This document shows, piece after piece, positions 28,340-50,870 of a stretch of 64,000 nucleotides of DNA. The notes under the pieces are model-generated. The model did no database searches. It was given only the letters and a program-made list of their open reading frames with translations, and had not been told where the DNA came from. Origin of the DNA: Deroplatys truncata (lineage: Eukaryota; Arthropoda; Insecta; Mantodea; Mantidae); contig CM060985.1 of the NCBI GenBank assembly GCA_030765065.1, positions 4,278,001 through 4,342,000 of the forward strand, read 5' to 3'. The position numbers and the translations under genes were made by a program. Numbering within the stretch: position 1 is the stretch's first letter; each line of letters opens with the position of its first letter.

Positions 28340-29130
28340 AGTATAACACGTAGGGAGAGTACTGTATTCCACCCAAACATTCGAGGCCTAGATTTCAGCT
28401 CCCAGAACCCCCCGAAAAAGCGTTTTTAGAAAAAAAAAAAAAGGTCGGTATGTGTATCTCTGAACAGCATAACTCAAAAACTAAAACTCAGATAAATGTC
28501 AAACTTGGTATTTAAGTTCAGTATCTTCCAAAGATGCGACACGAAGAAAATCTCTCCACCCCAAATTATCCTTTACATGGAACATTTTTCGAATTTTTTG
28601 ATTTTCTAAAAAATGGCTGTAACGATTTTGATTGAAATATCATATACTATAGATATTTACATGACAAATAAAATGCATATCTTGAACGTTCTGGGAATAG
28701 CCTGCAAAGTGCTACGAATCTTGTATAACTGTAAACGTTAAGCGAAAGACGAAAATGTACTTCAGAAAAAATGTAGATGTCTTTAAAACATACAAGTTAT
28801 TTCAAATAATTCATGTGGCATAAGCCATTTCTGAGATATTCCTTATCAATGGTTCGATTTCTTCAATACTTCGTCATTCTTCTAAAGTCCTCGACATTCA
28901 CTTGTTTCTCGCGATGTCATGGCCAGCATATAGCGTGCAGTTGTTAAACATTTGACTATCGCTGTTCTCTATAACGAAATGTAGCTGTTTCTGTAAAGGT
29001 TTATCTCGGTTAAAATGAAGTACATAGGAAAAGAGGTTTTAGTAAGAAAAGTTTGTATATCCACTAATAAAGATAGAGCAGTGAATGTAAGACATCAGAT
29101 TTTTGTATATTAATTTTCCGCTTGAGTTAT
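28340..29130 (+). repeat. Dispersed repeat DR1, copy 8
   Basis: Well preserved: AACAGCATAACTCAAAAACT (28454-28473), GATGCGACACGAAGAAAAT, CCTTTACATGGAACATTTTT, CGATTTTGATTGAAATATCA, TTTACATGACAAATAAAATG, and CATTTGACTATCGCTG (28948-28963). Confidence 0.65.
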
Positions 29131-29533: not shown

Positions 29534-29539
29534 AATGAC
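29534..29539. repeat. Left target-site duplication (AATGAC)
   Basis: AATGAC directly precedes the element's first bases (AGTAGTATA) and is repeated exactly after its last base at 45732-45737. Six-bp duplications are characteristic of Polinton/Maverick insertion. Confidence 0.9.
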
Positions 29540-29604
29540 AGTAGTATAGAATTGCGGGGACTGGCACAGTTAATTTATGCATGGCTATTCATATGCTAAT
29601 TAGA

Positions 29605-29629
29605 CCCCCGCCCCCTCCCCCCACCCCCA
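29605..29629 (-). other. G-quadruplex-like run near left end
   Basis: The plus strand is C-rich here, so the minus strand has four runs of five or six G separated by single bases, 65-90 bp from the element terminus. The mirrored copy is at 45643-45666. Such a tract can fold into a G-quadruplex. A role in terminal replication is only a suggestion. Confidence 0.6.
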
Positions 29630-29639
29630 GCTCCTTGGT

Positions 29640-30370
29640 AGTTTTACTTGCACTCGAGGGTCATAAATCTTGTTGAGTACAATGGAAGCTTGACAGTTAA
29701 GTAATTAAGGCTGTCAATCAACTGTCAAAACGAACAAAGGGGTCATAAATTTAAGGTTCTGTAACAAAGGCGAGATGTTTTTCCTACCCCTTCCACATCA
29801 GGCCACTTCTGCACCTGGTCAGTTACCCACCCCCACTTGCATTGTTTGTCGAACACGTGGCATACTCATTCCACAAGCCAATAACAAAGCCGGTCCCTTT
29901 CCATTGTGTAAGAGATTCTATTGTGTGTGCCTTTCTATTGTCCTGGGCAAAACTAGTTTAGAAAGACACCTGCGGCGTTCCCATCCCACTACTCCATAAC
30001 AAAGCCTGACCCTTTCCATTGTTTGAGCTTAACAAAAGAATTCGAGGGCTGCTTTATACTCGTCCTGTCCTTGTTTGCGTGAAAGAGAGAGACACTTGTT
30101 TACCAACTCTGCGTAACAACGTCAGAGTCGCCATCATGATTTTGCCTGAGGGAGTTCTCCCCGATGTTTTACGACATCCTACGAATATACCCGAGCATAG
30201 TTAACAAGTATTCTGTTTGGTTTATTTCAGCCAGCGACTCTGAAAAAGCGTCTAATATACATTTCATTACATGCATTAAACCTCTGCGTGATATCCATAG
30301 ATCGGTGTTCGATTCTTACTGTAATCAAAAGTTTATTGCTAATGAGAAATTGATGATTGATATTATTATA
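29640..30370 (+). other. Left subterminal non-coding region
   Basis: Overlapping ORFs of 74, 61 and 72 codons (29775-30382) are mirrored in the right arm, but their composition is poor and they show no motif. I regard this as non-coding terminal sequence. Confidence 0.45.
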
Positions 30371-30374
30371 TCAT

Positions 30375-31055
30375 TACCCTAATTAATAAAAAAGGTGTTC
30401 AGAGAATTCTAACTTGACTCTTACCAAGTGAAACTCTAATGCTTAATAACTATTAAACTATGAAAGGTCAGATTAAAAAAATGTATTTATCAAATATAAT
30501 TTAATTTTTTATATATCATTACCCAAATTAATGAAAGGGCGTTCAGAGGGTTCTAGCTCGAATCTTACGCAGCGAAACTCTAATGCACAATAACTATTAA
30601 ACTATGCGCGGCCGGATTAAAATGTATTTAACAAATATAATTTAATTTTTATATATCATTACAATAATTAATAAAAAGGGTGTTCAGAGGGTCCTAGATC
30701 GCATCTGCGAAACTCTAATGCACAATAACTATTAAACTATGCACGGCTAGATTAAAATGTATTTAACAAATATAATTTAATTAATGAAACGGTGTTCAGA
30801 GGGTTCAAGATCGAATCTGCGAAACTCTAATGCTTAATAAATATTAAACTATGTGAGTATTGGGCGGTCAGATTAAAACGTGTTTAACAAATATAATTTA
30901 ATTTATACGCCATTACAATGTTTAACGAGCTGTATTCTTAGGAACCAGAGGTCCATAGTTTGAATCTTACCCTGCGAAACGTTATAATAACTATTAAAAT
31001 ATTGAAGCAGGGGGCGGTCGGATTAAAATTGCAATTAGCAAATATAATTATTTAT
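30375..31055 (+). repeat. Five diverged tandem repeats of about 110-143 bp (left arm)
   Basis: Units start near 30381, 30524, 30666, 30778 and 30917. Most share AATTAAT...GGTGTTCAGAGG, a TTCGAATC-like motif, GAAACTCTAATGC, AATAACTATTAAACTATG and AACAAATATAATTTAATT. The mirror copy is at about 44217-44790. Confidence 0.8.
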
Positions 31056-31146
31056 ATTAAACCTGGTGCATACTTAGATATCCCGATGCCTAGACAACAT
31101 TCTTTCTTCTCTCTTTTTCTTTCTATCTATCTCTTTCTTTCTCCAC

Positions 31147-31545
31147 GACTTGTACACATTCAGGCGTTCGCATATACACGAGCACTTGCACACACATCAG
31201 CAAACATACACTGGTGCACGCATGCACACACACGCACACACGTACATGTAAGTACACACACGCACACACGCGCACATACATACACCAACACACGCACACA
31301 TACATACACCAGTACACACACGCATTCACGCACCTCATGCGTATACCTACATACACCAGTGCTCTTACACTCACACATACATATACATGGACACACACAC
31401 ATACACGCACACACACTCGCGTACATACATACACTGTTACACTTGCACATACGCACACGACCACACACACACATGCAAACACATATGTCTGTTCACCTAC
31501 ACCCGACAGCACCAACCCACACACACACACACACACACCAACTCA
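31147..31545 (+). repeat. CA-rich low-complexity tract (left arm)
   Basis: About 400 bp of degenerate ACAC/ATAC repeats. It yields long His/Thr ORFs on the plus strand and Cys/Val ORFs on the minus strand, which are artefacts of the dinucleotide bias. The right-arm copy (about 43697-44120) has one extra repeat of about 30 bp. Confidence 0.9.
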
Positions 31546-31639
31546 CGCGCATGTCCTGAATGAAAAGAGACAAAACGATGCAATAAAAACTAATTATAGC
31601 TCGGGATGCGACGCGTCATTTACGAATTGTTCGAAACTG

Positions 31640-32440
31640 GTCTGGATGCAGGGGTTCGAATCCTAGGAGGGATTACAAATTCATCTTCTAATAACTACAA
31701 AACTAATTAAAATAAGGACAGTAAATAAACTTTATTACTTTTATGTCATTAGTTCCTTTCTTGTGCATGTATATTAGAGTCCAGGTGTCATGGGTTCGAT
31801 CCTTAATTTTAAAATCTCAATTATCTCGGAAACTAACAGTGATAGAGGAGCGGACCAAAGCACGATTGTTACCTCCTATGATGAACAACTAATGCCTTAT
31901 ATAATTTCCAATCAATTGTCCCTAGTTCGAATCCTGAATTTTCAGTGACTTCCTTAATTTTCCAGTGTACACTAGAATATATCACTTAGATCGATGCTGT
32001 AACTGCATACAGGACTTTTAAACACAAGGTAATATTATAAATAATTTTGTTTCTGGCGTTCTGAGTTCGAATACCGATTCAATGAAGTTTACTTATAAAT
32101 TTAATAACAGTAAATAATTAAGACAAAGGTACCAAATAAACCTATTACGTTTATGTCATCAGATAATATCTTGCGGGCGTATATTAGGGTACCTGACGTC
32201 CAAGGTTCGATCCTTAAGTTTAAATCTCAATTATCGCAGAAACTAGCAGAGATAGAGCTGTAGACGAAAGCATGTTTGATAGCTCATGCAATGAACAATT
32301 AATGCTGTATATAATTTTTAATCAGTTGCCCCTAGTTCGAACCCCGATCTTTCAATGACTTCACTGATTTTCCTCTGTACTCTAGAATACATCGCTTAGA
32401 TTGATGCTTTAACTGTATGCAGCTTTGTGTAACGACATTA
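31640..32440 (+). repeat. Tandem segment carrying B-box-like motifs (left arm)
   Basis: Two diverged copies of a unit of about 410 bp (about 31690-32100 and 32100-32440). Within them, near-consensus RNA polymerase III B-box motifs recur: GGTTCGAATCC (31653-31663), GGTTCGATCC (31793-31802), AGTTCGAATCC (31925-31935), AGTTCGAATACC (32064-32075), GGTTCGATCC (32204-32213) and AGTTCGAACCCC (32334-32345). No tRNA cloverleaf or convincing A box was found. Confidence 0.65.
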
Positions 32441-32457
32441 TGGATGTACTCTGTGTG

Positions 32458-32505
32458 AGAAAGAGCGAGAGAGGGAGAGAGAGAGCGAGAGGAAGTGAAA
32501 CAAGC
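32458..32505 (+). repeat. GA-rich tract upstream of promoter (left arm)
   Basis: A GAGA-type purine run (AGAGAGGGAGAGAGAGAGCG, 32466-32485), about 150 bp upstream of the TATA box of the small-protein gene. GAGA tracts are common in arthropod promoters. The mirror copy is near 42752-42795. Confidence 0.5.
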
Positions 32506-32636
32506 AGGGATAGAAGTGCTGAGGGCCTCTGCGCATGCGTAGCAAGAGATGATGTCATTGGCTGCAATAATCACGTGAGTGTAAGCATCACAGCCATGAT
32601 GACGTGCCGGCATCACCTGGAGGGGGTTTAGATCCC

Positions 32637-32644
32637 TATATAAA
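32637..32644 (+). promoter_or_regulatory. TATA box of left-arm small-protein gene
   Basis: TATATAAA lies about 130 bp before the first-exon ATG (32768). The same spacing holds in the right arm (42608-42615). It is the best RNA polymerase II promoter in the arm. Confidence 0.6.
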
Positions 32645-32767
32645 CAGATATCTGCCCATGTTAGAACTGTTGTGTACTTATTAACTTTACATTCAAGTTT
32701 TAAAGAGCATTAAAAGCAACGTGAGCTGCAGGCCGTCTACACATTCAGCACATATCAAAACGTGGCA

Positions 32768-33926
32768 ATGCAAGGTGAGTTTTAAATAACTATACAAAAT
32801 CACTGTTGGCTTTTACAATACATTTAATGTTGTTTAAACGTTACAGTACATGAAAGACGATTCGTTGCAAAGAGCATAATATTTTCTAATCTGTGCTTTA
32901 CATTCACATGGATTTCACTGCATACTCTTCTTCAGTTCACATGATTTTCGCCACACATTCTTCTTACATAAACATTCATACGATTTTCCCCCCCTCATTC
33001 TTTGTTTCACTATACACTCACATGATTTCCTCTACTCATTCTTTGTTCCCCTACAGTTCATGCCCTGTTAACATTAACATGACTTTCTCTGCACATTCTT
33101 TACTTCCATTAACATTCACATGATTTTCGCCACACATTCTTCTTACCTAAACATTCATACGATTTTCCCGCTCATTCTTTGTTTCACTATACACTCACAT
33201 GATTTCCTCTGCTCATTCTTTGTTCCCCTACAGGTTCATGCTCTGTTAACATTCACACGACTTTCTCTGCACATTCTTTGTTTCCATTAACATTCACACG
33301 ATCTTCGCTACAAATTCTTCTTACATAAACATTCATACGATTTTCCCCCACTCATTCTTTGTTTCACTATACATTCGCAAACGATTTCCCATACTCATTC
33401 TTTGGTTCTCTGCTGGCTCATTTTCAATGAACATTCACATGATTTTCTGTACTTATTCTTTGTTTCTCTACACATTCATAGGCTTACTTACAAAACATAC
33501 ACACCCTAGTTCTAATATAAAGAAGTGTATAACTCGTTCTTCAACTTGAATAATGTAGTGAATATAATAATTCATGACAATGTCTGTTACAGTTTGTTTA
33601 GCTGATAGACTTAACAAGATGGTGGAAGAGCGTAGTTTCCTACCGACTCGTAGAGTTCAAGACCTCGAAATAGGTCTTAACTAGAGATAAAGTCCTTAAA
33701 GAGAGTTCAAACAAGATATGGTACCAGGATCGTATCTTCGCTGGATGATTGTCAAGTGTTCTTGCCAGAGCGCTATAATTCGTTAACCGATCAAGAGATT
33801 GCAGAAATACCTGGGAACATATACCTCCAGTATAACGGCATGGCAGAGACGGGGAAATTTAAGACATGTAAATTGTCTTTTTTACATGCAAAGAAGGTGC
33901 GTAGAAGTGTCAAACTTAAGTATTGA
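32768..33926 (+). pseudogene. Small OB-fold-like Polinton protein gene, left copy (frameshifted)
   Basis: Mirror copy of the gene at 41324-42484. Exon 1 is ATGCAAG followed by GTGAGT (32768-32780), a perfect donor. The acceptor is TCTGTTACAG ending at 33592, and exon 2 would run to the TGA at 33924-33926. Around 33681-33684 one T present in the right arm is missing (CTAGAGATAA against CTATGAGATAA), which creates an immediate stop about one quarter of the way into exon 2. The promoter, splice sites and the rest of the frame are kept, so the damage is recent and specific to this arm. Confidence 0.6.
32895..33490 (+). repeat. Tandem repeats of about 40 bp in the intron (left arm)
   Basis: About 14 imperfect units built on CATTCACATGATTTTC, TGCACATTCTTTGTTTC and similar, grouped in super-repeats of about 180 bp (near 32940, 33118 and 33297). 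They fill most of the intron of the small-protein gene. The mirrored copy is at about 41760-42360. Confidence 0.8.
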
Positions 33927-34135
33927 ATGTTCTCCCATTTCACAATGAAAAATTCATAAATAAAACAACTGACTCATTGATATTACATATAAAGATACAA
34001 AAGATGCATATTATAGAATTTTATAAAAAATTTACGAAATTACAATATCACATGCTTTGAGTTTAATTATATCTAGCGCATTGAAATAACTCTAAATATC
34101 CGAATGTTTATACAAATCTTTGTGCTTCTTTTTAC

Positions 34136-34498
34136 ATGTGCAATATGCTTCATTTTACATGTATCATAACAAAAAATGTAATTCTTTCCAGGTTGCCTTT
34201 ACTTGACCAAGATAGTTTTCTAAGACTTTCATTGTGCGATGTTTCAGGGTGTGCAATAAGAGGAAGAAGAAGAGGAATAGCCTGCTGTCATGCAAAGGAT
34301 GCTGACGCTATTGGAGGGTGGAATAAGCACCATCGGCACCTACAAGAAACATTTCGGCAAGAAACGGGTGCTGAGACATCTACATCACCGAAACACATTA
34401 AGACAGGATCCTTATATAACATTACAGGGTATACAATGAAAAAATACGGTCAATTTTGTATACAATTCAATGCAAGGCTGAGAGTTAGCTCGAACTAG
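34136..34498 (+). CDS. Hypothetical Polinton-arm ORF, left copy
   Basis: A 120-residue ORF conserved without a break in both arms (right copy 40752-41114). A good splice acceptor (ATTCTTTCCAG, 34181-34191) lies inside its 5' part, so the true coding part may begin there at residues like RLPLLDQDSFLRLS, with an upstream exon not found. The middle has CDVSGCAIRGRRRGIACCH, a Cys- and Arg-rich segment. The C-terminus (SLYNITGYTMKKYGQFCIQF) weakly recalls the Y-I...K.(R/K)YG pattern of the neighbouring small OB-fold-like protein and may be a diverged relative. Function is unknown. It sits between that gene and the capsid remnant. Confidence 0.4.
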   Translation: MCNMLHFTCIITKNVILSRLPLLDQDSFLRLSLCDVSGCAIRGRRRGIACCHAKDADAIGGWNKHHRHLQETFRQETGAETSTSPKHIKTGSLYNITGYTMKKYGQFCIQFNARLRVSSN

Positions 34499-35154
34499 TC
34501 TCCCTATATTCATTGAAATTAAGCATTGTGAGCAATAATTTAAGTGACTGTGAAAATACTTTAAGTAATGGTGAAATTTGTATTCTAAAAGACTTCAGCC
34601 CTGTATACATTAACAGCATTAAGACTGTTTGCCACGCTGGAATACAAATTATGAAAATAAAAAGACTTTCATTTAAATAATAAGGAAATTTGCATAACCT
34701 GCTGTTACAAGTGTAATTGCATATACAGAAACAATGAGTCGGATGAGAAAGTGATGGAAATGTAAGATAAATAATAACAATAAAAGAATTAAGGTATGCT
34801 TTTACATAGTGTTTTTATTCATTAAAAATCCTTGCATTCCTAATGAAAAATAAATCATTACAATGATTAGTTTAAGTTATGTCACAATGATCAAAAAGAG
34901 AACCGTCTTTAGATGCATTACTCGATCTTAAGTCAGAGCACCAAAAAAGACAAATCACGGCTTCTCCATTTTAGATGCGGTGTCACTATTCAGGTAAATT
35001 CCTGTAACACAGCAGGTTGAGTATGCAGATCCGTTGTCCTAAATGGGTGAAACAGAGTCTTATCCAGCTTAACAGTCTTGAGATCTCAGCATCAGAAAGT
35101 CGAATCACAAGCCTTCTCCACTCGATGAGTACAGGTTTAACAACAGCATTCTCT
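34499..35154. other. Left-arm interval without intact gene
   Basis: AT-rich sequence. The part from about 34960 to 35154 mirrors DNA just downstream of the capsid remnant and shows short coding-like stretches on the minus strand with stops. Nothing can be named. Confidence 0.4.
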
Positions 35155-35328
35155 TCACCCTGAGACGATGTAAAGTATATAAATGTTCAACTTGACAAGG
35201 GATTCTAAACTCGTTGTTAGAGTCCAGAACTGATGTATTATATGGTGAAAACACGTGTTCCTCTTCTTAGTGATCTTGTCGTCGAATCTCGGTGTCATTG
35301 AGGTGTCGATAACATTGAAGATGCCCAT
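35155..35328 (-). pseudogene. Major-capsid-protein N-terminal remnant, left copy (frameshifted)
   Basis: Mirror of 39922-40095. The minus-strand ORF starts MGIFNVIDTSMTPRFDDKIT and then leaves the capsid-like frame at a purine-rich run near 35262. Capsid-like sequence continues in another frame up to about 35150. The same frameshift is present in the right arm, so it is older than the arm duplication or has been copied between arms. The remaining several hundred codons of a capsid protein are missing. Confidence 0.45.
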
Positions 35329-35330
35329 GA

Positions 35331-35480
35331 TTATAGGATTCTGAAGCCCAATAACTGTAGGAACTGCTGATTGCGTGATGTTAACTTGATGGGCGTCAAG
35401 GGCAGAGCATGATGTGTGCGTCGAATCATTCCATTATTATATCCTCGACGTCGTTGACTTCTTCTAAAATCTATAGGCAT
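35331..35480 (-). CDS. 49-residue Arg-rich ORF, left copy
   Basis: A minus-strand ORF starting MPIDFRRSQRRRGYNNGMIR and ending in the motif RNQQFLQLLGFRIL. It is intact and the same in both arms (right copy 39770-39919). It lies 2 bp upstream of the capsid remnant in the same orientation. Short basic ORFs just upstream of the capsid gene are a recurring feature of insect Polinton-like elements as I recall, but the function is unknown. Confidence 0.45.
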   Translation of the reverse strand: MPIDFRRSQRRRGYNNGMIRRTHHALPLTPIKLTSRNQQFLQLLGFRIL

Positions 35481-35827
35481 TATGCTTATATCCTTGTTTA
35501 TAAAGGCAATGATATTGCTGTTAGGCTCCCCTGTTGCTCTATGAAGCGGATGTTTATGAACAACAGGTAAAATTTGATTTGATGGTTCCTGTGAAATACG
35601 TTATCCAGCCGTAACAGATGGGAACACTGGTAGATGGAGTGTCCACTTTTACTATCGAGGAAGGAGACTGCGCTAAATTCGTATGATGCTCAACTTAAAT
35701 ATATTCACTAGGAAATCAGATTCAGACAGCTGATTAGATGGAATAACTTTGTCACTGAAGGACCACAGAACGTTCCTATAGAACAATCACTGGAAAAAAT
35801 CAAGAGTGAAAGGACATTTTAATGACA

Positions 35828-35830
<3 letters not shown>

Positions 35831-35898
<68 letters not shown>
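35831..35898 (+). repeat. (ATT)n microsatellite
   Basis: About 68 bp of pure ATT/TTA repeat. The right arm has only a few units at the same place (near 39411-39420), so this expanded after the arms formed. Confidence 0.95.
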
Positions 35899-35900
<2 letters not shown>

Positions 35901-35980
35901 CTGATCTAATAAAGAAGACATTCGCATCCTAATATGAGGAATCTTTAAACGTAGGGCATACAAGTCAAGGTCTATGTTAC

Positions 35981-36487
35981 TCAATGTTTTTTCCGGGACA
36001 AGTATAGCCCTCTGCCTGAGTTTTTTGAATTCCCTTTCACGCTCTGTCTCCTCTTCGTTTCTGTGTTTCTTCCCTTATTCTTCTTCACTCGAAAACCTCT
36101 CCCTCTTGCTTCAATTTCTCTGTTACGTCTCATCATTTCAGCAAGTTGTTTATCTGCAGCTTTTTTCGTATTTACAGCTGTAGCAATTTGTGATGCATCT
36201 CCAGCGGCGGCTCCTAGTGCTGCAATAATTGGTATGAGCGGTAGAAATCCTCCTCGTTTCATCTTTTTGGACCCTCCGCCAACAGATACCTTTCTCTCAA
36301 TTTCTCTCTTATGCCTCATCATTTCGGCAAGTTGTTTATCTGCTGCCTTTTTCTTATTTACTTCTGAGGCAATTTGGGCTGCACCTCCAGCAGCAGCGCC
36401 TAGAGCTGCAATAATTGGTATGAAAGGTAGAAATCCCCCTCGTTTCTTCTTCGTGGTTACTGCACCTGGAGCTACCTTTCCCTTCAT
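35981..36487 (-). CDS. pX-like core protein with duplicated module
   Basis: A 168-residue ORF on the minus strand with two near-identical modules. Each starts with basic residues, then GGFLP(F/L)IPIIAALGAAAG, a hydrophobic Gly/Ala-rich segment of about 20 residues, and then a Lys/Arg-rich amphipathic part (KKAADKQLAEMM). Module 1 spans residues about 14-62 and module 2 about 73-122. The tail is very basic and ends GRGLYLSRKKH. A basic flank plus a GGFLP...A-rich hydrophobic stretch is typical of the pX (mu-like) core protein of adenoviruses and its Polinton/adintovirus counterparts, which packs DNA and may act on membranes. Those usually have one hydrophobic segment, so the doubling is unusual. 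The start is the first Met of the frame. The frame is intact although the element is otherwise decayed. Confidence 0.6.
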   Translation of the reverse strand: MKGKVAPGAVTTKKKRGGFLPFIPIIAALGAAAGGAAQIASEVNKKKAADKQLAEMMRHKREIERKVSVGGGSKKMKRGGFLPLIPIIAALGAAAGDASQIATAVNTKKAADKQLAEMMRRNREIEARGRGFRVKKNKGRNTETKRRQSVKGNSKNSGRGLYLSRKKH

Positions 36488-37030
36488 AATTGCTGTTACT
36501 AGTCACGCTGCCAACTTTTTCACCTAATGTAACATCAGATTGCACGCTTTTCCAAGTCGTTTCACCAGATCTTGTCAGCAATGTTTCTCGAAGCAGAGAC
36601 CTTATGCTGAGCGTTGGCAATGCCACTAAGATTACACGAATCGTCTAACGGAATGATTCCAGGGTCTCCTCTCTTTAATTTTTCTCTAGCTTTACCACAG
36701 TTCCTCAGCCTATGTAACCAGGTAAATGTACTTCAACCGTTGCAGGCTAGTGAGAGAGTTAATTAAACCGAAACCTCTTGCGAGCTTAACCACCTTAGCT
36801 CTCACGTTATACTAATCGATTTTTATTCAGGATAGTTCTTTTATACTTTCTCATTAGCGTATATACATTAAGAGCGATTTATTTTACTTTAGCTGTCAAG
36901 CTAGAGAGGATGAAACAAGAATGCTCACAGCCTATTGATATGTTAGGCTTTGAAAGCGACTTTAGATGTGAACTTAGTGGAAAACTGTTTCATGTCAATG
37001 TTCTTGACTTGCCTATCATGTAACCCATTC
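36488..37030 (-). other. Possible degenerate coding DNA upstream of the pX-like gene
   Basis: On the minus strand, a second frame (ORF 36354-36626, starting MALPTLSIRSLLRETLLT) overlaps the pX-like start. Its upstream part could be a remnant of a preceding gene. Short coding-like stretches in another frame lie at about 36600-36730, interrupted by stops. Nothing can be identified. Confidence 0.3.
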
Positions 37031-38437
37031 AGGGAAAAGGTGACCAGCAAAGGGAAAAATGTTACCAGCAAAGGGAAAAACGTGACCAGCAAAGGGAAAA
37101 ACGTGACCAGCAAGGGGAAAAAGGTGACAGCATAGGGAAAAATGTGACCAGCAAAGGGAAAAAAGGTGACCAGCAAAGGGAAAAATGTGACCAGCAAAGG
37201 GAAAAACGTGACCGGCAAAGGGAAAAAGGTGACCAGTAAAGGGAAAAATGTGACCAGCAAAGGGAAAAATGTGACCAGCAAAGGGAAAAAAGGTGACCAG
37301 CAAAGGGAAAACGTGACCAGCAAAGGGAAAAACGTGACCATCAATGGGAAAAAAGGTGACCAGCAACGGGAAAAACGTTACCAGCAAAGGGAAAAAGGTG
37401 ACCAGCAACGGGAAAAACGTTACCAGCAAAGGGAAGAAGGTGACCAGCAAAGGGAAAAACGTGACCAGCAAAGGGAAAAAGGTGACCAGCAAAGGGAAAA
37501 AGGTGACCTGCAAAGGGAAAAAGGTGACCAGCAAAGGGAAAAACGTGACCAGCAATGGGGAAAAAGGTGACCAGCAACGGGAAAAACGTTACCAGCAAAG
37601 GGAAAAAGGTGACCAGCAACGGGAAAAACGATACCAGCAAAGGGAAAAAGGTGACCAGCAAAGGGAAAAACGTGACCAGCAAAGGGAAAAACGTGACCAG
37701 CAAAGGGAAAAAGGTGACCAGCAAAGGGAAAAAGGGTGACCAGCAAAGGGAAAAAGGTGGCCAGCAAAGGGAAAAACGTGACCAGCAAAAGGGAAAAAGG
37801 TGACCAGCAAAGGGAAAAAGGTGACCAGAAAAGGGAAAAACGTGACCAGCAAAGGCAAAAACGTTACCAGCAAAGGGAAAAAGGTGACCAGCAAAGGAAA
37901 AACGTGACCAGAAAAGGGAAAAAGGTGACCAGCAAAGGGAAAAACGTGACCAGCAATGGGAAAAAAGGTGACCAGCATAGGGAAAAAGATGACCAGCAAA
38001 GGGAAAAAGGTGACCAGCAAAGGGAAAAAGGTGACTAGGAAAGGGAAAAACGTGACCAGCAAAGGGAAAAAGGTGACCAGCAAAGGGAAAAACGTGACCA
38101 GCAAAGGGAAAAATCTGACCAGCAAAGGGAAAAACGTGACCAGCAAAGGGAAAAAGGTGACCAGCAAAGGGTAAAAAGGTGACCAGCAAAGGGAAAAAGG
38201 TGACCGGCAAAGGGAAAAATGTGACCGGCAAAGGGAAAAATGTGACCAGCAAAGGGAAAAATGTGACCAGCAAAGGGAAAAAGGTGACCAGCAAAGGGAA
38301 AAATGGGACCAGAAGAGGGAAAAACGTGACCTGCAAAGGGAAAAAGGTGACCAGCAAAGGGAAAAATGTGACCTGCAAAGGGAAAAAGGTGGCCAGCAAA
38401 GGGAAAAAAAGGTGACCTGCAAAGGGAAAATGACCAG
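37031..38437 (+). repeat. 21-bp minisatellite (about 67 units)
   Basis: The unit is GTGACCAGCAAAGGGAAAAA plus one base. The length is 7 codons and the unit has almost no stops, so long ORFs exist in several frames: VTSKGKN/K and DQQREKR/G on the plus strand, and FPFAGHV, FPLLVTF and SLCWSRF types on the minus strand (up to 378 codons). The variable base (C, G or T before GTGACC) and occasional 22-bp units shift the frame. Several frames are open at once, so the ORFs reflect the unit and are not evidence of a gene. Confidence 0.93.
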
Positions 38438-38744
38438 TATCTCCCTCAACTCTCGCATTCTCTGTGCTAACTATCAAGAAAACTTGTACTCTTACCTCTA
38501 TGAATCCATTTCTAGCTACTTGAATCTGCTTGTGCTTAATGAGATAGTTATAATTAACGGAATTACAACTATTATGCGCGAATGCTACAATATTTTGCTT
38601 AGTCTAATTCGGACATGGCTGTTTATATGCATCAAAACCTGAGTACATATATAAATACATAAATGTTAAAAAATAGCTCAGTCTCGTGTTATCGTATACG
38701 AATTCAACATCTACAGTATACATTGACTAGTTTATATATACTGC
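38438..38744. other. Spacer between minisatellite and BED-like ORF
   Basis: About 300 bp of AT-rich DNA. TTATATATAC (38731-38740), just before the BED-like ORF, could act as a TATA element, but it is very close to the start codon. Confidence 0.35.
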
Positions 38745-39323
38745 TTGAGCATGAACACTCACAAAGACGGACAATTACAGTCAATTTACGAGAATCTTGA
38801 TTTTTCGTATGTTTCCCAAGGGGGGAGTAATCGCTTTGTTAAGTGCTGCATATGTAATAGAACTTTAAAAAACAGGACAATTTCAAGGCTTAAGCAACAT
38901 AGGAGACGATGCTGTAAAGCAATGACCAGCTGTGCATTGACTACAACACCCAAACGAGATCCTGAAATCTTCTCAAGTCCCGAAGAGCGGGATTCAAGAT
39001 GTACCGTACTTGGAACCAGTTCAAGCGACCCTGTAATAACGTCAAGAGCTACCACTGATGAAGCAATGAGAGCAGTTTCTTTGAATGAGCAAGCTCTGAA
39101 TAAACACACCAATGAAAGCAAGCATACTAGTTTCAACTAACCTAGATTAGAAGATATATCCAAAGCGAATACAGAGGAGATGCTATGCCGCTACACTGAT
39201 CCTAATGATTTGGTAAACATGCTAAGGGTACTCATGAGGCTTCATACACCTGATAAAAATGACTTTTCCGATGCGATTAACGACATTATTCAGGATTTAA
39301 AGCTGGGTGGTTTTATAGCGTGA
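38745..39323 (+). pseudogene. BED-finger-like protein with one in-frame stop
   Basis: The ORF 38745-39140 (131 residues, starting MSMNTHKDGQLQ) contains a zinc-finger-like segment CCICNRTLKNRTISRLKQHR followed by RRC, a C-x2-C...H-x-C pattern as in BED fingers of DNA-binding and hAT-type proteins. After the TAA at 39138-39140 the same frame stays open for another 60 codons to the TGA at 39321-39323, with normal-looking protein (for example DPNDLVNMLRVLMRLHTPDK). The original protein was probably about 192 residues and has acquired one nonsense mutation, unless there is readthrough. It may be a captured host or transposon gene, or a Polinton regulatory gene. It ends 38 bp before the right arm. 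Confidence 0.5.
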
Positions 39324-39769
39324 TTAGCATCTGCAGAACCTTGAAACCATGAAAGAGTTAGAAAGATTCCTCATATTAGGATGCGAATGTCTTCTTTATT
39401 AGATCAGTGAATAATAATAAAAATGTCATTAAAATGTCCTTTCACTCTTGATTTTTTCCAGTGATTGTTCTATAGGAACGTCCTGTGGTCCTTCAGTGAC
39501 AAAGTTATTCCATCTAATCAGCTGTCTGAATCTGATTTCCTAGTGAATATATTTAAGTTGAGCATCATACGAATTTAGCGCAGTCTCCTTCCTCGATAGT
39601 AAAAGTGGACACTCCATCTACCAGTTTTCCCATCTGTTACGGCTGGTAACGTATTTCACAGGAACCATCAAATCAAATTTTACCTGTTGTTCATAAACAT
39701 CCGCTTCATAGAGCAACAGGGGAGCCTAACAGCAATATCATTGCCTTTATAAACAAGGATATAAGCATA

Positions 39770-39919
39770 ATGCCTATAGATTTTAGAAGAAGTCAACGAC
39801 GTCGAGGATATAATAATGGAATGATTCGACGCACACATCATGCTCTGCCCTTGACGCCCATCAAGTTAACATCACGCAATCAGCAGTTCCTACAGTTATT
39901 GGGCTTCAGAATCCTATAA
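39770..39919 (+). CDS. 49-residue Arg-rich ORF, right copy
   Basis: The same protein as at 35331-35480, on the plus strand. ATG at 39770 and TAA at 39917-39919, 2 bp before the capsid-remnant ATG. The N-terminal half is strongly basic (RRSQRRRGYNNGMIRR) and the C-terminal half hydrophobic (FLQLLGFRIL). It may bind nucleic acid. Confidence 0.45.
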   Translation: MPIDFRRSQRRRGYNNGMIRRTHHALPLTPIKLTSRNQQFLQLLGFRIL

Positions 39920-39921
39920 TC

Positions 39922-40095
39922 ATGGGCATCTTCAATGTTATCGACACCTCAATGACACCGAGATTCGACGACAAGATCACTAAGAAGAGGAACATGTGTT
40001 TTCACCATATAATACATCAGTTCTGGACTCTAACAACGAGTTTAGAATCCCTTGTCAAGTTGAACATTTATATACTTTACATCGTCTCAGGGTGA
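39922..40095 (+). pseudogene. Major-capsid-protein N-terminal remnant, right copy (frameshifted)
   Basis: The plus-strand ORF (57 residues) opens MGIFNVIDTSMTPRFDDKIT. A frameshift near 39985-39990 (a run of A and G) moves the rest to the next frame, where NNEFRIPCQVEHLYTLH is read at about 40034-40084. A short acidic start followed by an E-(F/I)-RIP...LYTL block is, as I recall, characteristic of the N-terminus of double-jelly-roll major capsid proteins in insect Polinton/adintovirus-like elements. The protein would normally be several hundred residues, and all but the first tenth or so is missing. The identification rests on these short motifs. Confidence 0.45.
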
Positions 40096-40751
40096 AGAGA
40101 ATGCTGTTGTTAAACCTGTACTCATCGAGTGGAGAAGGCTTGTGATTCGACTTTCTGATGCTGAGATCTCAAGACTGTTAAGCTGTATAAGACTCTGTTT
40201 CACCCATTTAGGACAACGGATCTGCATACTCAACCTGCTGTGTTACAGGAATTTACCTGAATAGTGACACCGCATCTAAAATGGAGAAGCCGTGATTTGT
40301 CTTTTTTGGTGCTCTGACTTAAGATCGAGTAATGCATCTAAAGACGGTTCTCTTTTTGATCATTGTGACATAACTTAAACTAATCATTGTAATGATTTAT
40401 TTTTCATTAGGAATGCAAGGATTTTTAATGAATAAAAACACTATGTTAAAGCATACCTTAATTCTTTTATTGTTATTATTTATCTTACATTTCCATCACT
40501 TTCTCATCCGACTCATTGTTTCTGTATATGTCATTACACTTGTAACAGAAGGTTATGCAAATTTCCTTATTATTTAAATGAAAGTCTTTTTATTTTCATA
40601 ATTTGTATTCCAGCGTGGCAAACAGTCTTAATGCTGTTAATGTATACAGGGCTGAAGTCTTTTAGAATACAAATTTCACCATTACTTAAAGTATTTTCAC
40701 AGTCACTTAAATTATTGCTCACAATGCTTAATTTCAATGAATATAGGGAGA
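40096..40751. other. Right-arm interval without intact gene
   Basis: Mirror of 34499-35154. Just after the capsid remnant a coding-like stretch occurs (KPVLIEWRRLVIRLSDAEIS, about 40110-40172) in a frame that soon ends, perhaps the tail of another deleted gene. A 61-codon ORF (40392-40577) is AT-driven. Confidence 0.35.
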
Positions 40752-41114
40752 CTAGTTCGAGCTAACTCTCAGCCTTGCATTGAATTGTATACAAAATTGA
40801 CCGTATTTTTTCATTGTATACCCTGTAATGTTATATAAGGATCCTGTCTTAATGTGTTTCGGTGATGTAGATGTCTCAGCACCCGTTTCTTGCCGAAATG
40901 TTTCTTGTAGGTGCCGATGGTGCTTATTCCACCCTCCAATAGCGTCAGCATCCTTTGCATGACAGCAGGCTATTCCTCTTCTTCTTCCTCTTATTGCACA
41001 CCCTGAAACATCGCACAATGAAAGTCTTAGAAAACTATCTTGGTCAAGTAAAGGCAACCTGGAAAGAATTACATTTTTTGTTATGATACATGTAAAATGA
41101 AGCATATTGCACAT
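40752..41114 (-). CDS. Hypothetical Polinton-arm ORF, right copy
   Basis: Identical in translation to the ORF at 34136-34498 (120 residues, ending NARLRVSSN). Perfect conservation in both arms, despite silent-looking differences nearby, shows that it was intact when the arms formed. The internal splice acceptor is conserved here as well (complement, about 41059-41069). Confidence 0.4.
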   Translation of the reverse strand: MCNMLHFTCIITKNVILSRLPLLDQDSFLRLSLCDVSGCAIRGRRRGIACCHAKDADAIGGWNKHHRHLQETFRQETGAETSTSPKHIKTGSLYNITGYTMKKYGQFCIQFNARLRVSSN

Positions 41115-41323
41115 GTAAAAAGAAGCACAAAGATTTGTATAAACATTCGGATATTTAGAGTTATTTCAATGCGCTAGATATAATTAAACTCAAAGCATGT
41201 GATATTGTAATTTCGTAAATTTTTTATAAAATTCTATAATATGCATCTTTTGTATCTTTATATGTAATATCAATGAGTCAGTTGTTTTATTTATGAATTT
41301 TTCATTGTGAAATGGGAGAACAT

Positions 41324-42484
41324 TCAATACTTAAGTTTGACACTTCTACGCACCTTCTTTGCATGTAAAAAAGACAATTTACATGTCTTAAATTTCCCCG
41401 TCTCTGCCATGCCGTTATACTGGAGGTATATGTTCCCAGGTATTTCTGCAATCTCTTGATCGGTTAACGAATTATAGCGCTCTGGCAAGAACACTTGACA
41501 ATCATCCAGCGAAGATACGATCCTGGTACCATATCTTGTTTGAACTCTCTTTAAGGACTTTATCTCATAGTTAAGACCTATTTCGAGATCTTGAACTCTA
41601 CGAGTCGGTAGGAAACTACGCTCTTCCACCATCTTGTTAAGTCTATCAGCTAAACAAACTGTAACAGACATTGTCATGAATTATTATTTTCACTACATTA
41701 TTCAAGTTGAAGAACGAGTTATACACTTCTTTATATTAGAACTAGGGTGTGTATGTTTTGTAAGTAAGCCTATGAATGTGTAGAGAAACAAAGAATAAGT
41801 ACAGAAAATCATGTGAATGTTCATTGAAGATGAGCCAGCAGAGAACCAAAGAATGAGTATGGGAAATCGTTTGCGAATGTATAGTGAAACAAAGAATGAG
41901 TGGGGGAAAATCGTATGAATGTTTATGTAAGAAGAATTTGTAGCGAAGATCGTGTGAATGTTAATGGAAACAAAGAATGTGCAGAGAAAGTCGTGTGAAT
42001 GTTAACAGAGCATGAACCTGTAGGGGAACAAAGAATGAGTAGAGGAAATCATGTGAGTGTATAGTGAAACAAAGAATGAGCGGGAAAATCGTATGAATGT
42101 TTAGGTAAGAAGAATGTGTGGCGAAAATCATGTGAATGTTAATGGAAGTAAAGAATGTGCAGAGAAAGTCATGTGAATGTTAACAGGGCATGAACCTGTA
42201 GGGGAACAAAGAATGAGTAGAGGAAATCATGTGAGTGTATAGTGAAACAAAGAATGAGGGGGGAAAAATCGTATGAATGTTTATGTAAGAAGAATGTGTG
42301 GCGAAAATCATGTGAACTGAAGAAGAGTATGCAGTGAAATCCATGTGAATGTAAAGCACAGATTAGAAAATATTATGCTCTTTGCAACGAATCGTCTTTC
42401 ATGTACTGTAACGTTTAAACAACATAAAATATATTGTAAAAGCCAACAGTGCTTTTGTATAGTTATTTAAAACTCACCTTGCAT
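41324..42484 (-). CDS. Small OB-fold-like Polinton protein, two exons, intact
   Basis: Read on the minus strand: a TATA box (42608-42615), exon 1 ATGCAAG (42484-42478) with donor GTGAGT, an intron of 819 bp filled with short repeats, an acceptor TCTGTTACAG ending at 41659, and exon 2 41658-41324. The two exons total 342 nt, an exact 114 codons including the stop, giving 113 residues. Without splicing the ORF would start MTMSVTVC (117 residues). The protein has YEIKSLKRVQTRYGTRIVSS followed by LDDCQVFLPERY, a beta-rich pattern like that of small OB-fold single-strand DNA-binding proteins. I recall similar small proteins in insect Polinton-like elements, but the function is not established. If it binds single-stranded DNA it would suit strand-displacement replication. 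Confidence 0.55.
41760..42360 (-). repeat. Tandem repeats of about 40 bp in the intron (right arm)
   Basis: Mirror of 32895-33490. Units such as GCAGAGAAAGTCATGTGAAT (42159-42178) match a motif found repeatedly in the host DR1 repeats outside the element. Confidence 0.8.
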
Positions 42485-42607
42485 TGCCACGTTTTGATAT
42501 GTGCTGAATGTGTAGACGGCCTGCAGCTCACGTTGCTTTTAATGCTCTTTAAAACTTGAATGTAAAGTTAATAAGTACACAACAGTTCTAACATGGGCAG
42601 ATATCTG

Positions 42608-42615
42608 TTTATATA
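42608..42615 (-). promoter_or_regulatory. TATA box of right-arm small-protein gene
   Basis: TATATAAA on the minus strand, the same distance upstream of the exon-1 ATG as in the left arm. The GA-rich tract lies about 140 bp further upstream. Confidence 0.6.
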
Positions 42616-42819
42616 GGGATCTAAACCCCCTCCAGGTGATGCCGGCACGTCATCATGGCTGTGATGCTTACACTCACGTGATTATTGCAGCCAATGACAT
42701 CATCTCTTGCTACGCATGCGCAGAGGCCCTCAGCACTTCTATCCCTGGTTGTTCACTTCCTCTCGCTCTCTCTCTCTCCTTCTCTCGCTCTTTCTCACAC
42801 AGAGTACATCCATAATGTC

Positions 42820-43620
42820 GTTACACAAAGCTGCATACAGTTAAAGCATCAATCTAAGCGATGTATTCTAGAGTACAGAGGAAAATCAGTGAAGTCATTG
42901 AAAGATCGGGGTTCGAACTAGGGGCAACTGATTGAAAATTATATACAGCATTAATTGTTCATTGCATGAGCTATCAAACATGCTTTCGTCTACAGCTCTA
43001 TCTCTGCTAGTTTCTGTGATAATCGAGATTTAAACTTAAGGATCGAACCTTGGACGTCAGGTACCCTAATATACGCCCGCAAGATATTATCTGATGACAT
43101 AAACGTAATAGGTTTATTTGGTACCTTTGTCTTAATTATTTACTGTTATTAAATTTATAAGTAAACTTCATTGAATCGGTATTCGAACTCAGAACGCCAG
43201 AAACAAAATTATTTATATTACCTTGTGTTTAAAAGTCCTGTATGCAGTTACAGCATCGATCTAAGTGATATATTCTAGTGTACACTGGAAAATTAAGGAA
43301 GTCACTGAAAAATCAGGATTCGAACTAGGGACAACTGATTGGAAATTATATATGGCATTAATTGTTCATCATAGGAGCTAACAATCGTGCTTTGGTCCGC
43401 TCCTCTATCACTGTTAGTTTCCGAGATAATTGAGATTTTAAAATTAAGGATCGAACCCATGACACCTGGACTCTAATATACATGCACAAGAAAGGAACTA
43501 ATGACATAAAAGTAATAATGTTTATTTACTGTCCTTATTTTAATTAGTTTTGTAGTTATTAGAAGATGAATTTGTAATCCCTCCTAGGATTTGAACCCCT
43601 GCATCCAGACCAGTTTCGAA
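42820..43620 (-). repeat. Tandem segment carrying B-box-like motifs (right arm)
   Basis: Mirror of 31640-32440. Several motifs are identical to the left arm (for example GGTTCGAACTAGGGG, 42909-42923, on the plus strand as complement). One has lost its CpG (GGATTTGAACCCC at 43588-43600). Confidence 0.65.
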
Positions 43621-43696
43621 CAATTCGTAAATGACGCGTCGCATCCCGAGCTATAATTAGTTTTTATTGCATCATTTTGTCTCTTTTCATTCAGGA

Positions 43697-44120
43697 CATG
43701 CGCGTGAGTTGGTGTGTGTGTGTGGGTTGGTGCTGTCGTGTGTAAGTGAACAGACATATGTGCTTGCATGTGTGTGTGTGTGGTCGTGTGCATATGTGCA
43801 AGTGTAACAGTGTATGTATGTACGCGAGTGTGTGTGCGTGTATGTGTGTGTGTCCATGTATATGTATGTGTGAGTGTAAGAGCACTGGTGTATGTAGGTA
43901 TACGCATGAGGTGCGTGAATGCGTGTGTGTACTGGTGTATGTATGTGTGCGTGTGTTGGTGTATGTATGTGCGCGTGTGTGCGTGTGTACTTACATGTAC
44001 GTGTGTGCGTGTGTACTTACATGTACGTGTGTGCGTGTGTGTGCATGCGTGCACCAGTGTATGTTTGCTGATGTGTGTGCAAGTGCTCGTGTATATGCGA
44101 ACGCCTGAATGTGTACAAGT
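43697..44120 (-). repeat. GT-rich low-complexity tract (right arm)
   Basis: Mirror of the CA-rich tract at 31147-31545, with an additional copy of a segment of about 33 bp (TGTGTACTTACATGTACGTG occurs twice, near 43984 and 44017). ORFs here are artefacts of composition. Confidence 0.9.
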
Positions 44121-44216
44121 CGTGGAGAAAGAAAGAGATAGATAGAAAGAAAAAGAGAGAAGAAAGAATGTTGTCTAGGCATCGGGATATCTAAGTATGC
44201 ACCAGGTTTAATATAA

Positions 44217-44790
44217 ATAATTATATTTGCTAATTGCAATTTTAATCCGACCGCCCCCTGCTTCAATATTTTAATAGTTATTATAACGTTTCGTAGGGTA
44301 AGATTCAAACTATGGACCTCTGGTTCCTAAGAATACAGCTCGTTAAACATTGTAATGGCGTATAAATTAAATTATATTTGTTAAACACGTTTTAATCTGA
44401 CCGCCCAATACTCACATAGTTTAATATTTATTAAGCATTAGAGTTTCGCAGATTCGATCTAGGACCCTCTGAACACCCTTTTTATTAATTATTGTAATGA
44501 TATATAAAAATTAAATTATATTTGTTAAATACATTTTAATCCGGCCGTGCATAGTTTAATAGTTATTGCGCATTAGAGTTTCGCTGCGTAAGATTCGAGC
44601 TAGAACCCTCTGAACGCCCTTTCATTAATTTGGGTAATGATATATAAAAAATTAAATTATATTTGATAAATACATTTTTTTAATCTGACCTTTCATAGTT
44701 TAATAGTTATTAAGCATTAGAGTTTCACTTGGTAAGAGTCAAGTTAGAATTCTCTGAACACCTTTTTTATTAATTAGGGTAATGATATAA
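44217..44790 (-). repeat. Diverged tandem repeats (right arm)
   Basis: Mirror of 30375-31055. One unit fewer is recognisable around 44440-44530, where a fusion of two left-arm units suggests unequal exchange in this arm. Confidence 0.7.
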
Positions 44791-45642
44791 TAATATCAAT
44801 CATCAATTTCTCATTAGCAATAAACTTTTGATTACAGTAAGAATCGAACACCGATCTATGGATATCACGCAGAGGTTTAATGCATGTAATGAAATGTATA
44901 TTAGACGCTTTTTCAGAGTCGCTGGCTGAAATAAACCAAACAGAATACTTGTTAACTATGCTCGGGTATATTCGTAGGATGTCGTAAAACATCGGGGAGA
45001 ACTCCCTCAGGCAAAATCATGATGGCGACTCTGACGTTGTTACGCAGAGTTGGTAAACAAGTGTCTCTCTCTTTCACGCAAACAAGGACAGGACGAGTAT
45101 AAAGCAGCCCTCGAATTCTTTTGTTAAGCTCAAACAATGGAAAGGGTCAGGCTTTGTTATGGAGTAGTGGGATGGGAACGCCTCAGGTGTCTTTGTAAAC
45201 TAGTCTTGCCCAGGACAATAGAAAGGCACACACAATAGAATCTCTTACACAATGGAAAGGGTCAGGCTTTGTTATGGAGTAGTGGGATGGGAACGCCTCA
45301 GGTGTCTTTCTAAACTAGTCTTGCCCAGGACAATAGAAAGGCACACACAATAGAATCTCTTACACAATGGAAAGGGACCGGCTTTGTTATTGGCTTGTGG
45401 AATGAGTATGCCACGTGTTCGACAAACAATGCAAGTGGGGGTGGGTAACTGACCAGGTGCAGAAGTGGCCTGGTGTGGAAGGGGTAGGAAAAACATCTCG
45501 CCTTTGTTACAGAACCTTAAATTTATGACCCCTTTGTTCGTTTTGACAGTTGATTGACAGCCTTAATTACTTAACTGTCAAGCTTCCATTGTACTCAACA
45601 AGATTTATGACCCTCAGGTGCAAGTAAAACTACCAAGGAGCT
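44791..45642 (-). other. Right subterminal region with a 115-bp tandem duplication
   Basis: Mirror of the left subterminal region. Positions 45135-45249 and 45250-45364 are a direct tandem duplication (AATGGAAAGGGTCAGGCTTT starts both copies) that is absent from the left arm. The copies differ at one or two bases, so it is recent. ORFs of 61-74 codons are not credible genes. Confidence 0.7.
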
Positions 45643-45666
45643 GGGGGTGGGGGGAGGGGGCGGGGG
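45643..45666 (+). other. G-quadruplex-like run near right end
   Basis: Four G runs of five or six (GGGGGTGGGGGGAGGGGG then CGGGGG) about 65-90 bp inside the terminus, mirrored at 29605-29629. The G-rich strand is the one ending 3' at the right terminus, and the same polarity relative to the end holds on the left. Confidence 0.6.
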
Positions 45667-45731
45667 TCTAATTAGCATATGAATAGCCATGCATAAATTA
45701 ACTGTGCCAGTCCCCGCAATTCTATACTACT

Positions 45732-45737
45732 AATGAC
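45732..45737. repeat. Right target-site duplication (AATGAC)
   Basis: Exact copy of 29534-29539, directly after the last base of the element. Confidence 0.9.
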
Positions 45738-46480: not shown

Positions 46481-46890
46481 AGAGAATACGCGATAGTCAA
46501 GGGCTGGTCGCTATGTGATTGCCTTGAGATCCGTTGTTCTGTTTGCATGACCACGAGAAAAGTGTAAGTATTCCAAAATTGAAACCATAACAAGAAATAT
46601 GTCGGAAATGCTTAACTCTACACAAAATTGAATTTCACATAAATTGTGTGCTTTAACAAGATCTATATTTTTTGTGTAGTTAGATTTTGTCCATCTCTTA
46701 CGGTTTACCAATTATACAAAATGAAGACGACTTCACAGACTATTTCCAGAAAATTCAACATATACATTTTATTTGTCATGTTACTATCTTATATGGCATT
46801 TTAAATAAAATTGTTAGCCATTTTTGAGAAAACCGAAATTGGGGTGCAGGTTTGTTGAAAATCCTCAAAAGATAAGCAAGTTGTGCTGTT
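46481..46890 (-). repeat. Dispersed repeat DR1, copy 9 (reverse)
   Basis: Shows GCGATAGTCAAGGGCTGGTC (46490-46509), CTTACGGTTTACCAATTATA, CAACATATACATTTTATTTG (46757-46776) and AAAATTGTTAGCCATTTTTG, the complements of the DR1 anchors. Confidence 0.6.
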
Positions 46891-50224: not shown

Positions 50225-50870
50225 AGACAACAAATCTGATGTTACATTCACATGACTTTCTCTACCCTCTATCGCTTAATAGTGGGTAAAAAATTATTCT
50301 TACGGAAGTTTATTTTCCTAAGTACTCCATTTTAATGGAGATAAACCTTTGCAGAAATACCTACATTTCGTTATAGAGACCAGCGATAGTCAAATGTTTA
50401 ACAACTCGACGCTACATGCTCCATACTGTTTCCATGACATCGCGAGAAATAACTGAATGTTGACAAGACTTTAAGAGAATGCCAAAAAATAAACAAATGG
50501 AACCATTAATAAGGATTTCTCAGAAATAACTGATACCACATTACGACTTCACACGCTATTCCCAAAAAATTCTGGATATGTATTTTATTCTTCATGTAAA
50601 TATCTTTTATACACGGTATTTTAAGCAAATGGATACAGACATTTTTTAGAAAAACATAATTTTCGAAACATGCTCCTTGTAGGTTGGGGTGGGGAATTTC
50701 CCTGAAAACCTTATTATCGCATCTTTAGCAGATACCAAACCTAAACACAAAGTTTGGTATTTATCCTCATTTTCCAATTTTTGAGCTATGCCGTTCACTG
50801 ACACCGCTACTCGGACCTTTTTCTAAAAATACATCTTTTTGTCGAACATATGTTCCATTAGAGGTGAATG
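50225..50870 (-). repeat. Dispersed repeat DR1, copy 12 (reverse)
   Basis: CATTCACATGACTTTCTCTA then CCCTCTATCGCTT (50249-50280), AGCGATAGTCAAATGTTTAA (50382-50401), CATGACATCGCGAGAAATAA, and AAATCGGAT-poor but recognisable tails to about 50870. Confidence 0.6.

Follow-up and report, generated by a model that had tools for sequence, protein, structure and literature searches.

A mirror-ended, non-autonomous Polinton family in the genome of the mantis Deroplatys truncata

A stretch of 64,000 nucleotides from the mantis Deroplatys truncata (assembly GCA_030765065.1, contig CM060985.1, positions 4,278,001 to 4,342,000; hereafter the window, numbered from its first letter) contains an element, at 29540..45731, whose two ends are the same long segment in inverted orientation. 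This mirror element belongs to a non-autonomous Polinton family that has been amplified to several hundred sites in the host genome. Colinearity with a full-length relative in the same genome supports the derivation of both ends from the same (right) end of the parent and, judging from the same comparison, the half that contains the integrase and polB genes is gone together with its own end. The process that founded the family and the mechanism that homogenises its arms are what we infer from sequence.

An amplified family and its full-length relative

The mirror element has AG...CT ends, is flanked on both sides by a perfect 6-bp target site duplication (TSD), AATGAC, and carries the AGTAGT-type end motif of Polintons. 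Its left end reads AGTAGTATAGAATTGCGGGGACTGGCACAGT from 29540, and the reverse complement of this sequence terminates at 45731. Upon self-alignment, 29540-35946 matches 45731-39362 in inverted orientation, with a left arm of 6,407 bp and a right arm of 6,370 bp on the two sides of a unique centre (Table 1). The ends, the duplication, the inverted arms of about 6.4 kb and the 3.4-kb centre described in the original prediction, which was made from the letters of the window, were thus all confirmed. Substitutions between the two arms amount to 0.7-0.9% overall, with 42 mismatches over 6,125 aligned sites in the pairwise comparison (25 alignment windows of 250 bp, to about position 35,789) and a difference of 0.91% over 6,177 sites in a 12-copy alignment. 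The insertions and deletions between arms represent changes in tandem-repeat copy number, the largest being 115, 112, 57 and 24 bp.

The host assembly searched comprises 4.29 Gb in 818 contigs. At three mismatches or fewer, the right (mirror-side) arm/centre junction has 638 genome matches and the left one 513, while the reversed-pattern controls have none. In addition, the best 40 of 2,045 first-look candidates for the side of the centre that carries a pX-like open reading frame (ORF), when scored, were the window copy and 39 others at 97-99%. Assembling long inverted repeats is difficult, and one arm might have been collapsed or mirrored by the assembler. However, the hundreds of junction matches at separate loci with none in the controls, the differing TSDs and the arm differences private to each copy exclude chance and misassembly in practice, so that the probability of an artefact is negligible.

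A sample of 12 copies was assembled from the window copy, ten pX-side matches read around the insertion and one member of a terminus pair. All 12 have mirrored arms, the right arm being partial in the sequence read for copies 4, 5 and 11. Exact and differing 6-bp duplications are found at eight of them (AATGAC, ATCGAG, TGCGGT, AACGTC, GGCAGT, CATGTG, CAGGCC and, in copy 9, ATTATA); copies 4, 5, 11 and 12 have an end that is cut off or unresolved. The mirror junction is common to the 11 copies aligned, except that copies 6 and 10 carry a duplication of 18 bp; copy 5 differs from the other copies slightly deeper into the arm, and copy 4 is absent from the junction alignment. Among the matches listed for contigs C1-C4, 25 are exact left junctions, and for 15 of these an exact right junction follows, 2.6-4.5 kb downstream on the same strand. 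Dating the copies by their centre was dropped, since 10 of the 12 had been chosen as best matches to one part of it. The original prediction had considered the insertion a fossil of defective genome formation. A passive single-copy fossil is not supported: the insertion is part of a high-copy family with a common junction, and in some insertions the arms differ by just 0.1-0.4%.

The same structure recurs among terminus pairs. Ten pairs were sampled early in a list of at least 32, with 1.4 kb read on each side: eight are mirrored, with the arm joined to the pX side of the centre at one terminus and to its opposite side at the second, and the remaining two are a native pair (18.4 kb) and a rearranged one. 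Copy 12's pair, a 10.0-kb pair and a 34.0-kb pair were skipped, and the pair of the full-length relative is also outside the ten. The rearranged member (C8:25333626-25350799; L051, L052) is a 17.2-kb pair with the usual right side and an unmatched inner left side. As for the 18-bp duplication, it may mark a sub-lineage; gaps of similar size are present in L037, L046, L047 and L052.

The proposed Polinton/adintovirus-type descent is supported by a full-length relative in the same genome (L031/L032; C1:246959448-246978836), which spans 19,389 bp, has the TSD TACGAT and carries terminal repeats of 2,070 bp with one mismatch between them. From the left, it contains a polB-type frame of 1,217 codons and then, on the opposite strand, an rve integrase (E=7.5e-10), an unnamed protein, a fibre-like ORF (21.3 bits with the T7 tail fibre model, short of the cut-off) and a Pox_A32 ATPase (E=6.4e-7), followed by a phospholipase plus pX gene, a protease-like ORF (sub-threshold matches to the Josephin and adenovirus endoprotease models), an unmatched 255-codon ORF and a double-jelly-roll major capsid protein (E=4.4e-110). 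The integrase frame is open. The 1,217-codon frame, also open, contains the motifs KKMNNSVYG and YMDTDS, and we take it to be polB from these motifs and from its position; Pfam gave no DNA_pol_B_2 match for it at E≤0.1. A search with the capsid protein gives 1,007 relatives at E≤0.001, and among the best 120 of these one unnamed protein is 87% alike and the others 42-50%, those with a species name being from insects. Two relatives were examined, this one over its full length and another at two interior places, where it is not mirrored; neither revealed 6-kb arms as the normal structure of full-length elements.

The mirror element keeps the order of the relative, followed inwards from the relative's right end, without reversal up to just before the integrase. 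In particular, arm positions 1-1712 correspond to the terminal repeat, 4607-4976 to the region downstream of the capsid gene, 5163-5622 to pieces of the capsid gene, and 5631-6309 to the capsid start and the preceding gene. The left arm/pX junction skips about 530 bp of the relative, beyond which come pX, the start of the ATPase gene, a 21-bp array in the place of the remaining ATPase gene and the fibre-like ORF, a 52-codon remnant that terminates at the identical stop as the relative's integrase-adjacent protein, and then the inverted arm. The centre is contiguous with the left arm in parental order and extends to just before the integrase. Since the left arm leads to pX in native order, it is regarded as the native arm and the right one as the added copy. 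The inner arm is present once in the relative and twice in the mirror element, in agreement with the earlier proposal that one end is carried twice; a relative with a single copy of it together with polB, integrase and ATPase, named there as the support to look for, thus exists in the same genome.

The native pX/protease junction has 546 genome matches (control 0), and all 40 scored matches of the relative's ATPase fragment, the best 40 of 2,382 candidates, are at 99-100%. For contigs C1-C4, each of the 15 listed ATPase matches has an exact native junction no more than 2.5 kb away, and none has a listed left mirror junction at that range. PF03175 matches are numerous elsewhere in the genome, and several occupy open frames of 1,261-1,315 aa. 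A genome-wide first look with DNA_pol_B_2 returned 11,882 candidates (76 scored), an enormous Polinton load.

Mirror and native elements have recombined at least once. In copy 9 (L023/L024), the left side alone contains a tract over the 530-bp gap that is 94-99% like L032 in 80-column windows, while the windows beside it are 67-95% like L032 and 96-100% like the window copy; its right side carries the usual mirror junction. Copy 9 was rejected as an ancestral intermediate because the extra tract is this close to L032 and its flanks are less so. By position, an exact native left junction is combined with an exact mirror right junction at C1:221302863-221306268 and C2:34926512-34929027, that is, at 2 of the 38 native junctions in C1-C4. 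Moreover, C7:50010066 holds a terminus identical to the window's which, by position, has a native junction of the same strand 6.2 kb away; exact sharing of ends between native and mirror elements thus seems possible.

Arm homogenisation and origin of the mirrored structure

In a tree of 24 arms, the two arms of a copy are sisters in 12 of 12 copies, with support of 0.985-1.000. The arms diverge by 0.11-2.14% within copies, and left arms by 1.4-5.8% between copies. Departures common to both arms number 1,565 versus 564 in one arm. Drift since the founding would group left arms together; with zero fixed left/right differences in 5,940 columns (80% threshold on each side), the arms show concerted evolution and evidently copy each other. 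Divergence between copies is 6.4% at arm positions 1-1500, 6.0% at 1500-4000 and 2.3% at 4000-6300; two parts of the centre diverge by 1.8% and 2.7%. Outer-segment distances correlate well with arm-middle distances (r 0.53) and weakly with distances in the inner arm and the centre (r 0.16-0.22), a pattern that would be expected if elements had traded ends and each new end had then been copied to the opposite side.

We consider it probable that the mirror element originated as a copy-back-like half genome that is moved in trans by intact Polintons and in which one end templates the other. The founder would be the right half of a full-length Polinton, from the right terminus through the capsid genes, pX and the ATPase side to just before the integrase. 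A polymerase entering from the right end would turn back before the integrase into the protease/pX region and copy outward to the right terminus. Such a copy-back or snapback turn, or an equivalent joining, would add the mirror end, with loss of the integrase, polB and the other end; the copied arm may perhaps have begun inside the protease gene, read outward at the mirror junction. As both ends are genuine Polinton ends, protein-primed replication of the mirror element and its integration in trans could then be provided by intact Polintons. An integrase in trans fits a family without one of its own and the open integrase frame of the relative; open polB and integrase frames exist elsewhere in the genome, and none was found in the mirror element. 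Displaced strands would form panhandles via the 6.4-kb complementary ends, and copying of one end from the other would maintain the likeness of the two arms within a replicating lineage even as separate lineages drift apart.

Several points weigh against this proposal. The replication steps are proposed from the structure, and an identical final structure would result from copy-back, from end joining of two half molecules or from recombination between ends; the panhandle origin of the original prediction is likewise not told apart from copy-back or end joining. At the right end of L032, blastn gives no match to the arm middle (about 1,712-4,607), of which the 41-bp minisatellite and a 60-bp piece match L031 in its left subterminal region, on the polB side. 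The donor must accordingly have differed from a plain L031/L032 type; an ORF of 117 amino acids (aa) in the arm is present in neither L031 nor L032 (best tblastn E=0.11). The family counts are uneven, the right junction being matched more often than the left and only 15 of the 25 exact left junctions listed having an exact right partner, and the 12 copies are a biased sample owing to the selection of ten of them by one centre part. Finally, arm differences are clustered, with a longest identical run that at most 6 of 300 shuffles reach in 9 of 12 copies, and post-insertion gene conversion on the chromosome may therefore explain part of the likeness between arms.

Taken to its limit, this last point becomes a chromosomal palindrome whose arms are kept alike by post-insertion gene conversion without replication of the element, a reading that concerns arm likeness and not the origin of the mirror. 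The clustering and the long identical runs speak for it. Nevertheless, different sites have the identical inverted structure and junctions, which places the inversion before insertion, and arm divergence varies about 20-fold between copies, making it a very improbable full explanation. Instead of a polymerase turn, host repair may have joined two broken right-end Polinton fragments head to head before they were mobilised. End joining yields the same structure, and the 18-bp duplication, as a sign of local instability at the mirror junction, is in its favour, yet it needs two independent breaks and molecules of different length; we regard it as unlikely, even if the data do not discriminate it from copy-back. 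The mirror may also have arisen by stepwise expansion of terminal repeats, with recombination between ends spreading the right end over the left and deletion removing the inner genes. Under this scheme the 2,070-bp repeat of the relative would be a starting point, the partial resemblance of the arm middle to the relative's other end would suggest that longer repeats once existed, and the evident copying between arms would be expected. However, no intermediate occurs among the few loci read, the left inner boundary is common to 11 of 12 copies, with recombinant copy 9 as the sole exception, and the eight mirrored pairs end at or near the same arm position, so that stepwise expansion too seems a doubtful route. 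These explanations are partly compatible with each other and with the copy-back proposal.

Beyond the copy-back proposal itself, one may tentatively imagine a self-sustaining family of satellite transposons descended from a copy-back defective genome whose parent was a protein-primed DNA virus. Such a family would be replicated, and perhaps packaged, by intact Polintons and would interfere with them through competition by its two good ends. If the element were transcribed across its length, the transcript would fold as a 6.4-kb hairpin and might supply small RNAs directed at the helper.

Gene content and surroundings

The features of the mirror element are listed in Table 1.

Table 1. Features of the mirror element in the window (relative: full-length element L031/L032)
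Feature	Position	Strand	Basis
Left TSD, AATGAC	29534..29539	.	sequence
Left arm, native end, running into the pX gene as in the relative	29540..35946	+	self-alignment, junction alignment
Outer left arm, like the 2,070-bp terminal repeat of the relative (mirrored at right end)	29540..31251	+	blastn against L031/L032
Left-arm counterpart of 117-aa ORF, frameshifted in window copy	33681..33926	+	ORF comparison across copies
Decayed remnants of major capsid gene and preceding gene, inner left arm (mirrored in right)	34702..35928	-	blastn and tblastx against L032; window alignment
Unique centre, 3,415 bp	35947..39361	.	self-alignment, junction alignment
pX-like ORF, two hydrophobic repeats	35981..36502	-	Pfam
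21-bp tandem array, 66 copies	37031..38430	.	tandem repeats; colinearity
BED-zinc-finger-like ORF	38727..39140	+	PF02892 E=0.0058, 17.1 bits, below family cut-off 20.6
Last 52 codons (stop included) of the relative's integrase-adjacent protein	39168..39323	+	tblastx 42% over 52 positions, E=1.5e-8
Possible protease-gene remnant at mirror junction (weak)	39324..39366	+	local score 14 against L032; equalled by 6/1000 base shuffles
Right arm, inverted copy of left arm (mirror junction 39361/39362)	39362..45731	-	self-alignment, junction alignment
Conserved 117-aa arm ORF, open in right arm	41324..41680	-	ORF comparison across copies
Right TSD, AATGAC	45732..45737	.	sequence

The pX-like ORF matches the Adeno_PX family (PF05829, E=2.8e-9, 37.1 bits, cut-off 25). 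Pfam reports no phospholipase domain in it, unlike in the relative, whose counterpart ORF matches PF08398 (E=1.3e-14) and reaches 21.6 bits with PF05829, under the cut-off. Between copies, the ratio of nonsynonymous to synonymous polymorphism (pN/pS) of the pX ORF of the mirror family is 0.96, with no sign of constraint. The ratios of the arm ORF and the BED ORF are 0.40 and 0.41, or 0.71 and 0.52 by counts of distinct changes; since the pairs are non-independent and the distinct-change ratios are higher, they can be taken as a weak hint of function only. The 117-aa arm ORF has its terminal stop alone and zero indels in 19 of the 24 arms of the 12 copies. A protein search with it gave two candidates, none at E≤0.01, and a search of viral_contigs gave no relative. 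An AlphaFold model of it was set aside (mean pLDDT, a per-residue confidence score, of 43 from a single-sequence input).

No protein-primed polB was found in the mirror element, in that blastn gave no match to the polB gene of the relative, and the longest open frame in 29-46.5 kb, of 420 aa, lies inside the 21-bp array. Similarly, no integrase was found by a Pfam scan of ten element ORFs or by blastn against the relative's integrase gene. There are no intact capsid or packaging genes: of these, just some decayed pieces of the capsid gene and the first part of the ATPase gene remain. The pX-like ORF is kept. Megablast of the mirror element against phage records gave no match, and transfer RNA and Rfam scans of the window returned none.

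Around the mirror element, the window contains four large tandem arrays, of 120 bp x 10 (3737-4925), 107 bp x 62 (5164-11839), 50 bp x 87 (17086-21359) and 88 bp x 148 (50989-64000, reaching the window end), which together occupy about 25 kb of the 64 kb. A dispersed repeat of about 200-800 bp, in both orientations and about 66-82% alike, flanks the mirror element on both sides (22592-24637, 26287-26804, 28411-29088, 46556-48413 and 50229-50839). The longest open frame in 1-29500 encodes 369 aa (955-2064).

Significance and comparison with known systems

Mirror-ended defective genomes are known as by-products of viral replication, and here one has been fixed in the germ line and multiplied, in a family that coexists with full-length elements on which it probably depends. 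Hundreds of copies would allow tests of end-from-end copying in protein-primed linear genomes, of the frequency of recombination with helpers and of helper interference over evolutionary time. In addition, the two arms could provide a clock for each insertion, in the way of retroviral long terminal repeats, if post-insertion conversion is accounted for.

A literature search for mirrored or long-armed Polintons, judged by titles and abstract starts and with subscription papers and Repbase outside its scope, found none described. Among protein-primed linear DNA genomes, symmetric defective adenovirus genomes (Ad12 SYREC) reportedly carry a duplicated, mirror-image end; a literature search by name found no such paper. 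Ad12 SYREC is said to be a laboratory recombinant with cell DNA in its centre and, unlike the mirror element, not propagated in the germ line. The replication of adeno-associated virus (AAV) is not protein-primed.

Asymmetric snapback AAV genomes are self-complementary, looped DNA molecules built from either the left or the right portion of the AAV genome (PMC8235507); in contrast to the mirror element, they are subgenomic parvovirus particles and not a transposon family. The copyback genomes of negative-strand RNA viruses are truncated, have complementary ends and arise when the polymerase leaves its template and rejoins (PMC12363239), whereas the mirror element is DNA, is integrated at hundreds of sites, and would owe its form to the polymerase under the proposed origin. 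Very long terminal inverted repeats are also a feature of Galileo/Foldback transposons (PMC3573991), which differ in having a P-element type transposase and internally repetitive repeats, with no viral half-genome origin. For invertron linear plasmids, adenovirus-like strand displacement is presumed, and racquet or panhandle intermediates have been proposed to explain long inverted repeats on integration; unlike in the mirror element, these repeats are host mitochondrial DNA (PMC1864894).

The mirror element also resembles Polintons/Mavericks, represented here by the full-length relative, with which it shares 6-bp TSDs, AGTAG ends, homologous termini, the order of gene remnants and a pX-like protein. 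It differs in that no polB, integrase or intact capsid gene was detected and in that its arms measure 6.4 kb versus 2.07 kb. An AGTAGT-type terminal motif is described in Mavericks, and the terminal repeats of 134 intact vertebrate Mavericks are 46-1,447 bp long (PMC8097293); the mirror element thus has the terminal inverted repeats of the group, in the form of far longer arms. At the same time, it has two structural features of copy-back or snapback genomes, as both ends appear to come from the same end of the parent and the unique segment is contiguous with one arm.

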